Assembly (NCBI GenBank): GCA_026005095.1
Contig: BPKK01000001.1
Span: forward strand, 124,001-188,000
DNA: 64,000 bases
From: Silanimonas sp.
GTDB lineage: Bacteria; Pseudomonadota; Gammaproteobacteria; Xanthomonadales; Xanthomonadaceae
Direction of reading: 5' to 3'
The notes under the pieces were generated by a model that was given only the letters and a program-made list of their open reading frames with translations, ran no database searches and was not told the origin of the DNA. The translations under genes and the position numbers were made by a program. Positions 38,869 to 44,466 of this stretch are shown here, piece by piece; position 1 is the stretch's first letter; the number at the start of each line of letters is the position of its first letter.

Positions 38869-40290
38869 TCAGGCCACCACCCGGTAGCAGGGCTTGTACT
38901 CGCCGGACATCTTCATCCGCCGCTGCTCGACGAAAGCCCGCAGGAGTTCGTCGAGGCTCTGCATGATGGCCTTGTCGCCGTGGATCTCGAAGGGGCCGTG
39001 CTCCTCGATGCGGCGCATGCCGGGCTCCTTCACATTGCCGGCCACGATGCCGGAGAAGGCGCGGCGCAGGTCGGCAGCCAGTTCGTGCACGGGGCGGCCG
39101 AAGTGCAGGTCGAGGGCCGCCATGGCCGCATGGTCGGGCTCGAAAGGCTGCTGGAAGGCGAAGGGGATCTTCAGCGACCAGTTGAAGAAGAAGGCGTCGC
39201 GCTGGGCGATGCGGTGCTCACGCACCTGCTTCATGCCTTCCTTCATCGCCCTGGCCACGGCCACCGGGTCCTCGACGATGATCTGGTAGCGCTTTGCCGC
39301 CTCGTCACCGAGGGTGAGGCGGATGAAGCGGTCGATCTGCTCGAAGTAGACGGCCGAAGCCTTCGGCCCGGTGAACACCAGCGGAAACGGAATGCCAGCG
39401 TTGTCCGGGTGCAGCAGGATGCCGAGCAGGTAGAGGATCTCCTCTGCCGTACCCACCCCGCCCGGGAAGACGATGATGCCGTGGCCGAGCCGGACGAAGC
39501 CCTCGAGGCGCTTCTCGATGTCCGGCATGATGACCAGCTGGTTGACGATCGGGTTCGGCGACTCGGCGGCGATGATGCCGGGCTCGGTCATGCCGATGTA
39601 GCGCGGGCTGCGGTGGCGCTGCTTGGCATGGGCAATGGTGGCGCCCTTCATCGGGCCCTTCATGGCGCCCGGGCCGCAACCGGTGCAGATATCGAGCCCG
39701 CGCAGGCCAAGCTCATAGCCGACCTTCTTCGTGTAGAGGTACTCCTCTCGGCCAATCGAGTGGCCGCCCCAGCAGACCACGAGGTTCGGGTCCTGGTGTG
39801 GGCGCATGGCGCGGGCATTGCGAAGGATCTCGAACACCACACTGGTGAGACCCTCGGAAGTATTCAAGTCGAACTGGCCGCTCTGTACCTCGATGGCGGT
39901 ATAGGCGATGTCGCGCACCACGGCGAACAGCAGATCGGCCACGCCGCGGATCAGTTCCCCGTCGACGAAGGCGATGGCCGGCGCGTTCTTCAGCTCGAGG
40001 CGGATACCGCGGTCCATCTGCTGCACTTCGATCTCGAAGTCCGGATAGCGGGCCGAAGCGGCGCGAGGGTCGTCGGAATCCGAACCCACGGTCAGCACCG
40101 CCAGCGCGCAGCGGCGCAGGGTCTCGCGCAGGCTGCCCTGGGTGGCATCGGTGAGCCGGGCGATCTCGGCGCGGGAGAGGATGTCGAGCCCGCCGCGCGG
40201 GCTGATGCGGGCGTTGACGGTGGGCAGGGGGGCGAAGGCGGTATCGGAGGGAGCAGCAGCGTGCATGGCGGGATGGCGCTCGTCGTTCAT
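38869..40290 (-). CDS. ppnN: Pyrimidine/purine nucleotide 5'-monophosphate nucleosidase PpnN (LOG family)
   Basis: The 473-residue protein hydrolyses nucleoside monophosphates to base and ribose 5-phosphate. In E. coli the enzyme (YgdH) is stimulated by (p)ppGpp. It has the LOG core with a PGGVGTAEE motif near the middle, flanked by the PpnN-specific N-terminal domain (INARIS-like VNARISPRGGLDILSRAEIARL) and C-terminal domain (FGRPVHELAADLRRAFSGIVAGNVK). Length matches the family. A second in-frame ATG eight codons in (40266) is possible. It is followed 111 nt later by the pilin operon but shares no function with it. Confidence 0.93.
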   Translation of the reverse strand: MNDERHPAMHAAAPSDTAFAPLPTVNARISPRGGLDILSRAEIARLTDATQGSLRETLRRCALAVLTVGSDSDDPRAASARYPDFEIEVQQMDRGIRLELKNAPAIAFVDGELIRGVADLLFAVVRDIAYTAIEVQSGQFDLNTSEGLTSVVFEILRNARAMRPHQDPNLVVCWGGHSIGREEYLYTKKVGYELGLRGLDICTGCGPGAMKGPMKGATIAHAKQRHRSPRYIGMTEPGIIAAESPNPIVNQLVIMPDIEKRLEGFVRLGHGIIVFPGGVGTAEEILYLLGILLHPDNAGIPFPLVFTGPKASAVYFEQIDRFIRLTLGDEAAKRYQIIVEDPVAVARAMKEGMKQVREHRIAQRDAFFFNWSLKIPFAFQQPFEPDHAAMAALDLHFGRPVHELAADLRRAFSGIVAGNVKEPGMRRIEEHGPFEIHGDKAIMQSLDELLRAFVEQRRMKMSGEYKPCYRVVA

Positions 40291-43400: not shown

Positions 43401-43614
43401 AGCGGCCGTTGGCGTCGGTGACCGCCTGCGAGACCGTGCCCGAGGGCAGATGGGTGATCGTGACCTGGGCGCCGGCAACCACCGTCTGCTCGGCGGTGGT
43501 GACACGACCGCCGATGTTGGCCGTGGTGTTCTGGGCCATGGCGGGGGCGGTCGCGAGGGCGATGGCGAGACCGAGCGCGAGCTTCGAGTAACGCACCTTG
43601 CTGCGATGATTCAT
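40423..43614 (-). CDS. Oar-like TonB-dependent receptor with carboxypeptidase-regulatory domain
   Basis: The 1063-residue outer-membrane protein has a signal peptide ending AMAQ, an N-terminal carboxypeptidase-regulatory-like beta-sandwich (about 30-110, TANIGGRVTTAEQTVVAGA), a plug (about 115-250, ending GYTGANINAVTKSGTNEFKG) and a long barrel that ends in Phe (LTVRYRF). This is the Oar/OmpA-related group common in xanthomonads. Its base composition is slightly lower in GC than neighbouring genes. Two PhoB-type direct repeats lie 135-192 nt upstream of the ATG, so expression may respond to phosphate shortage. The ligand is unknown; protein or phosphate-containing polymers are possible. Confidence 0.92.
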   Translation of the reverse strand: MNHRSKVRYSKLALGLAIALATAPAMAQNTTANIGGRVTTAEQTVVAGAQVTITHLPSGTVSQAVTDANGRYSARGLRVGGPYRVTITKDGKTETIDNVFLQLAETTQVNALLGATPTTIETVEVTAADIGYSPFSATAVGAGSVITRDQLDSFASIQRNLQDYARLDPRISQTDKERGEISAAGQNSRYNRITIDGVNTSDTFGLEANNLPTGRQPISIDAIEEVQVNVSNYDVTQTGYTGANINAVTKSGTNEFKGSVAYVYRNNDAVGDFDGRSFLGFEDENTWALTLGGPIVKDKLFFFLAYEDFKQTSNPGAEFGPIGSSATNPVAITQAEIDQAIGIAQTRYGASIGERLDEVSDNTEDLLFKLDWNISDNQRASLRYNKTEQNQVITPNNDRDDLSLSSHWYDQVKTFETVNAELFSDWSDRFSTELKLTSRTYDSAPNTFSRLPQVVIDIGPNQLNFGTEQFRHANVLSTDTTNVFAAGNLFLGDHEIKFGADWEQNDIFNLFLESSLGRYRFGSLANFQNGIVREYVYRTPQAGFSVNDTAANWTYENLGLFVQDTWAVNYNLTLTFGVRYDMPAIDDKPLFNQSVLDTFGLRNDGTIDGNGLFQPRFGFNYTFDSDRPTQLRGGIGLFQGAAPSVWLSNPFTNNGRTIFVYGCGTGGLASCTGAPITPTLDPDNQPLLVVGGQPRTDVDIVDPSLKQPSVWKANLAFDHELPFWGLVGTAELLLTEVNEGIYYEHLALGAPTGTGPDGRQMFWNANGYDPARWNQFGSGSGVSSRANRPAGFNDVVLARPTSKGGGENLTLSLQKPFGNSDWFWQVAYAYTNATEVSPLTSSRAISNWNGASVFNHEEKEYRANYAVRDRITAAVAWKHNFFAGYETKVSAFYEGRAGRPFSYVFDNDANGDGVSGNDLFYMPSSPGDVLFGSAAEEAAFWSFVESDAYLNSIRGQVAERNAARGPWVNTVDVRISQEIPGFAEGHKGEIALDILNFGNLLNSDWGLIEEYSFPFNRGVVEYGGIDASTGKYVYRFNTPDSTFFRDRRGESRWTAQLTVRYRF

Positions 43615-43748: not shown

Positions 43749-43766
43749 ATGGCAGTCTAACGACAG
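43749..43766 (-). promoter_or_regulatory. Pho-box-like element 2 upstream of the Oar-like receptor
   Basis: Read on the minus strand: CTGTCGT-TAGA-CTGCCAT, two 7-mers each one mismatch from the PhoB half-site CTGTCAT, with the standard 4-bp spacer. It lies 22 bp downstream of the better box. Confidence 0.55.
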
Positions 43767-43788
43767 TTTAACAGCCTAGGCGGCTCAG

Positions 43789-43806
43789 ATGACAGCACGG
43801 TGACAG
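43789..43806 (-). promoter_or_regulatory. Pho-box-like element 1 upstream of the Oar-like receptor
   Basis: Read on the minus strand: CTGTCAC-CGTG-CTGTCAT. This matches the PhoB consensus (two direct CTGTCAT repeats, 4-bp spacer) at 13 of 14 half-site bases. TAGGCT ten bases downstream could serve as a -10 element. The receptor ATG is 175 nt away. Confidence 0.7.
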
Positions 43807-43857: not shown

Positions 43858-44466
43858 TCAGCCCGGCGGGGCCCAGCCGAGGTAGGCCGCGAGGCCGTCC
43901 AGGAACATCTGGACGGAAATGGCCACCAGCACCATGCCCATCAGCCGCTCCAAGGCGGTCAGGGCGCGGCGGCCGAGCAGGCGGTAGAGCCGGGTGGCCG
44001 AGAACAGGATGGCGGCGGTGGCCGCCCAGGCCAGCAGCAGGGCCAGGCTCCAGTCGAGCAGGCGGTCGGGCTCCTTGGAGCCCATCAGCATCACTGCCGC
44101 CATGCCGGAGGGGCCGGCCACCAGGGGCACGGCCATGGGCACGATGAAGGGCTCGCCGTCCGGCGTGTCGCCGAAGATGCCCTCGGGGGCCGGGAAGATC
44201 ATCCGCAGGCCGATCAGGAACAGGATGATGCCGCCGGCGATGCTCACCGACTCCTGCCGCAGATGGATGAAGTCGAGGATGTAGCGGCCGGCGAACAGGA
44301 ATAGGAACAGCACGGCCAGCGCGATCACCAGCTCGCGGGCCAGCACCCGGCGCCGCCGGTGCTCGGGCACGGGCTTGAGCAGGCTCAAGAACACCGGCAC
44401 GTTGCCCAGCGGGTCGAGGATGAGGAACAGCAGCACCGCCGCGGCGAAGAGGCTGGAATCCTGCAC
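43858..44466 (-). CDS. MarC family integral membrane protein
   Basis: The 202-residue inner-membrane protein has six predicted helices and the UPF0056/MarC signatures LFLILDPLGNVPVFLSLL at the N-terminus and MAVPLVAGPSGMAAVMLM in the middle. Despite the name, members of this family have not been shown to confer multiple antibiotic resistance, and the function is unknown (YhgN and YchE in E. coli). It is 9 nt after the SDR gene on the same strand and may belong to the grxD-SDR-marC transcription unit. The start is preceded by AAGGAG. Confidence 0.9.
   Translation of the reverse strand: MQDSSLFAAAVLLFLILDPLGNVPVFLSLLKPVPEHRRRRVLARELVIALAVLFLFLFAGRYILDFIHLRQESVSIAGGIILFLIGLRMIFPAPEGIFGDTPDGEPFIVPMAVPLVAGPSGMAAVMLMGSKEPDRLLDWSLALLLAWAATAAILFSATRLYRLLGRRALTALERLMGMVLVAISVQMFLDGLAAYLGWAPPG

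Follow-up and report, generated by a model that had tools for sequence, protein, structure and literature searches.

A conserved PhoB-type box predicted to control an Oar-like TonB-dependent receptor gene in Silanimonas and other Lysobacterales

Gene content of the locus

The window (the whole 64,000-nucleotide stretch of Silanimonas sp. DNA that was analysed) belongs to a 2.45-Mb genome, 83% complete, of the family Lysobacteraceae. It contains a gene for a large TonB-dependent receptor, oar, flanked upstream by a marC-family gene and downstream by ppnN (Table 1). The receptor matches PF13620, PF07715 and PF25183 above their cut-offs and PF00593 just below its cut-off; it has the N-terminal CarboxypepD_reg domain, plug and outer-membrane barrel that characterize Oar-like proteins. 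NCBIfam provided no name for it, and a search for a solved relative found none.

Receptor matches are present in 190 of 199 Lysobacteraceae genomes, and synteny of grx, marC, oar and ppnN extends over much of the family, with ppnN staying beside oar in some families outside it as well. PpnN hydrolyses nucleoside monophosphates. Its position beside oar fits a nucleotide or phosphate context, which is no proof of the receptor's substrate. The receptor may take up phosphate-containing substrates, as an earlier note on this DNA proposed, a suggestion drawn only from the regulation described below and the neighbouring ppnN.

Table 1. Features of the marC-oar-ppnN region (coordinates within the window)
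Feature	Coordinates	Strand	Remarks
ppnN (nucleotide 5'-monophosphate nucleosidase), downstream neighbour	38869..40290	minus	Syntenic in much of the order
oar-like TonB-dependent receptor, 1063 aa	40423..43614	minus	Pfam: CarboxypepD_reg, Plug, outer-membrane beta-barrel
Pho-like repeat 2 (box 2), CTGTCGT-TAGA-CTGCCAT (CTGTCGTTAGACTGCCAT)	43749..43766	minus	Genus-restricted; approximately +1 to +18; overlaps element B
Element B, TGTTAAACTGTCGTTAG (consensus TGTTAAnCTnnnGTTAA)	43757..43773	minus	Nearly invariant order-wide; 11-bp direct repeat of GTTAA
Predicted -10 element, TAGGCT	43773..43778	minus	Follows box 1 at exactly 10 bp
Pho box 1, CTGTCAC-CGTG-CTGTCAT (CTGTCACCGTGCTGTCAT)	43789..43806	minus	Predicted PhoB activator site
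marC-family gene, upstream neighbour of oar	43858..44466	minus	Pfam; syntenic across Lysobacteraceae

Pho box 1 and its promoter

The earlier note had read two adjacent Pho-box-like repeats ahead of the receptor gene. Both were recovered at the positions in Table 1, within the marC-oar intergenic gap and on the same (minus) strand as the genes, with one mismatch to CTGTCATN4CTGTCAT in box 1 and two in box 2; the separation of 22 bp between them holds, and the receptor ATG lies at 43614. In a whole-genome pattern search, no site other than box 1 has one mismatch or fewer, and none other in the 2.45 Mb matches YTGTMAYN4YYGTMAY exactly. When up to two mismatches are allowed, the genome contains 8 sites, compared to 1 for the reversed-pattern control, and boxes 1 and 2 are the sole adjacent pair among the 8. 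Sites within the window were ranked with a matrix derived from the boxes upstream of pstS in the same order, with oar sequences excluded: box 1 is first with 22.5 bits, and the runner-up has 12.8 bits.

Receptor homologues collected from 61 relatives, 199 family genomes and a set of named genomes yielded 112 distinct upstream sequences, which were scanned for tandem half-sites using hand-chosen weights (the pstS-derived matrix agrees with these). Averaged over the sequences, the best tandem score is highest when the gap is exactly 4 bp (19.9, versus 14.1–16.0 at gaps of 0–3 and 5–10 bp). Tandems scoring above the 99th percentile of shuffled sequences are found in 75% of the 112 upstreams on the coding strand and in 2% on the reverse strand (76% and 4%, respectively, with the pstS matrix), while about 7% have no recognisable tandem; the sequences share ancestry, and these counts are thus not of independent events, though register changes are separate ones.

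The -10 element is similarly constant in position: TAnnnT occurs exactly 10 bp past the box in 83 of 104 box-bearing orthologous promoters, compared to 2 promoters at a spacing of 13 and 2 at a spacing of 20. A spacing of 18 is seen in 69 because TAAnCT lies inside element B. In E. coli phoA, the box is followed after 10 bp by TATAGT, 10 bp being the distance in PhoB-activated promoters, which can do without a good -35. The TAGGCT of the window is a poor -10 match, as is usual for activator-dependent promoters. Box and -10 are placed 8 to 10 bp farther from element B in some genera. In the families outside Lysobacteraceae they are 8 bp closer to it, with TAAACT within element B serving as the -10. 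As the internal 10 bp is fixed and the distance to element B varies, the box and -10 module behaves as a unit, as would be expected if activator site and -10 function together. Sequence and conservation thus establish the repeat together with its strand, spacing and -10: box 1 has the tandem half-sites with a 4-bp gap, the -10 at 10 bp and the conservation upstream of orthologues that are expected of a PhoB promoter.

This order-wide conservation with fixed spacing already contradicts chance as an explanation of box 1, and we regard the view that chance matches account for the repeats as very improbable; what it has in its favour is box 2, which by itself is unexceptional because it scores only 11.0 bits with the pstS matrix (rank 4 in the window).

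Other components of a Pho regulon can also be recognised in this genome. PhoB is encoded by an intact gene (369.8 bits versus a curated cut-off of 296.2), followed by a polyphosphate kinase gene, and pstS carries a box of the same kind as box 1. Another TonB receptor gene is preceded by CTGCCAT-N4-CTGTAAC, 10 bp and CAGACT, an arrangement conserved in the genus. pstS and a TonB receptor gene are each present in identical copies on two contigs (C14/C18 and C18/C22 of the window's genome, G000), probably as a result of assembly duplication. A second Oar-type receptor is encoded approximately 4 kb from pstSCAB-phoU in another genus member, G003 (L258, C9:12000-30000). We set this paralogue aside as proof of a phosphate role, since genes for RNase R and an rRNA methylase separate it from pstSCAB-phoU, placing it near the operon and not in it.

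Which protein would bind box 1 has two candidate answers. Besides PhoB, the genome encodes at least six full-length regulators of the OmpR family, and next to box 1 lies another 11-bp direct repeat, element B; both observations would suit a different OmpR-family regulator with a PhoB-like half-site, in which case oar would answer another signal. This is quite unlikely: box 1 agrees in its half-sites with the boxes ahead of pstS in the same family, the 10 bp between box and -10 is the spacing of PhoB promoters, and the half-sites of element B differ from those of box 1 (GTTAA versus TGTCAY). Box 1 is instead very probably a PhoB site, given its order-wide conservation, a -10 at the phoA distance and the agreement with the pstS matrix, and we place the probability that it is a real, conserved PhoB-type activator site for oar under phosphate limitation at about 0.86.

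We infer that phosphorylated PhoB would bind box 1 when phosphate is limiting and activate oar. It would occupy both half-sites, which lie 11 bp apart, and recruit RNA polymerase to the weak -10, with transcription predicted to start near 43766 and to produce a 5' leader of approximately 150 nt. The induction of the receptor by phosphate starvation that the earlier note had suggested is well supported by sequence as far as box 1 is concerned, because this box is conserved order-wide with the PhoB-type -10 distance; that support does not cover box 2 in an activating role.

Box 2 and element B

Box 2 consists of the second half of element B plus 8–9 bp specific to the window's genus. Conservation among orthologues, the check that box 1 passes throughout the order, fails for box 2 beyond the genus: the orthologous upstreams outside it lack the repeat, and it is lost in the genus member L011. 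Its register scores 16.4 in two sister genomes, 11.0 in the window and in the sister nearest to it, and -1.2 in L011, against a median of -15.7 over all promoters.

A joint array of four PhoB half-sites formed by boxes 1 and 2 would be in keeping with the 12 of 14 half-site bases matched by box 2 in the window and the single mismatch in the two sister genomes. Such an array is nonetheless unlikely, given the absence of box 2 outside the genus and its loss in L011; in addition, box 2 begins at about the predicted transcription start and is not followed by a -10 element at 10 bp. Because of this position and the missing -10, PhoB bound to box 2 would be unable to activate transcription in the normal manner. 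We therefore do not count box 2, which is genus-only, lies at and after the predicted start and overlaps element B, as a second activator site. It would have arisen within the genus over element B, and a regulator bound there would more likely modulate or repress. One possibility is that box 2 serves negative feedback in this genus only; another is that it is a by-product.

Element B directly follows the -10 in the window. Among the 104 aligned promoters, the G, T, T, A and A of its consensus are each present in 104, its C and T in 99 and 103, and the four bases of the second GTTA in 94, 104, 102 and 103, values that are flattered somewhat by the anchoring of the alignment on element B itself. 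Matches to the strict form are almost all at oar. When the pattern is relaxed slightly, the family has about one match per genome, again at oar, with a few genomes having extra matches or none. The underlying repeat GTTAAN6GTTAA is found approximately 39 times in 16 Lysobacteraceae genomes, versus 6 times for the reversed control (our own tally, with oar counted). Away from oar, the repeat lies in three genera near genes for OapA-type M23 peptidases, and in the window's genus between rimK and the gene of an OmpR-family response regulator. The loci concerned (L227, L229, L231, L233-L235, L241 and L246; L228, L230, L232 and L236) were assigned with Pfam for L227, L241, L246, L228 and L230 and otherwise by sequence similarity. 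The GTTAAN6GTTAA repeats may mark a further OmpR-family regulon.

Because this repeat is enriched and recurs outside oar, we prefer to read element B as an operator for an OmpR-family regulator, a proposal with about an even chance of being correct. Its main rival, that element B is a second extended -10 promoter, is plausible, with the odds somewhat against it. Two further ideas were considered and rejected. The idea that element B activates from a downstream -10 does not agree with the promoters inspected by eye, which have no TAnnnT 10 bp beyond it. A hairpin in the 5' leader after element B, suspected on visual inspection, is not indicated by folding against dinucleotide shuffles (mean z of -0.68, compared to -1.05 for the next 52 nt), and Rfam contained no match for this leader.

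Receptor divergence and comparison with known systems

Within the genus, the receptor is far less similar than the genes around it: receptors are 47–61% identical among genus members, while flanking genes are mostly 88–98% identical (see L009 against L024 and L017 against L034). In a DNA comparison of the window with the sister genome G001, the flanks are mostly 93–99% identical (86–94% just downstream of the receptor gene), and most of the receptor gene is only 46–75% identical. At the protein level the corresponding values are 97% for the flanks and 54.5% for the receptor with G001, and 98% and 47% with G002 and G004. Two control TonB receptors of the same genomes are 92, 79, 78 and 76%, and 93, 91 and 86%, identical to the copies in the window's genome. 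The N-terminal 50–100 residues of the receptor stay alike within the genus. In pairs of Lysobacter genomes, the receptor can track its flanks (for example, 88.5% versus 88.6%).

Since its identity lies far below that of both the flanks and the control TonB receptors, the receptor body in the window's genus has, judging from these alignments, either been exchanged or diverged very rapidly, with its promoter unchanged. This pattern looks like cassette replacement or extreme diversification. Within-genus divergence of this kind would make the receptor a candidate target of phages or antagonists.

Taken together, we propose tentatively that oar in the Lysobacterales is under dual control, by PhoB through box 1 and by another regulator through TGTTAAnCTnnnGTTAA, and that in the window's genus the receptor has been swapped or has diverged to an extreme degree (driven by phages, antagonists or a change of substrate) behind a near-identical promoter and flanks; as a whole, this combination is rather doubtful. 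The PhoB assignment would give a widespread receptor a firm place in regulation, its promoter suggesting a role in phosphate scarcity, and the comparison of oar promoters has exposed element B as a previously unrecognised conserved element.

The oar promoter resembles those of E. coli phoA and pstS in its tandem CTGTCAY half-sites 11 bp apart, and that of phoA also in the -10 placed 10 bp after the second half-site. It differs from both in that it drives an Oar-type TonB receptor gene and in the nearly invariant element that overlaps the start region. A link between an Oar-type receptor and the Pho regulon was not found in the open full-text literature, the scope of our search. The Oar-like TonB receptors of Xanthomonas share the Oar-type N-terminal extension with the window's receptor, and the available portions of the papers describing them report no phosphate regulation (PMC1790865, PMC3542200). 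A regulatory parallel is offered by Caulobacter crescentus, which belongs to a different order: in the accessible part of that report, no Oar-type receptor is named, and the link to PhoB comes from measured expression, whereas that of oar comes from sequence conservation (PMC11208175). As proposed here for oar, TonB receptors of C. crescentus are under PhoB control and form part of its PhoB regulon (PMC11208175).
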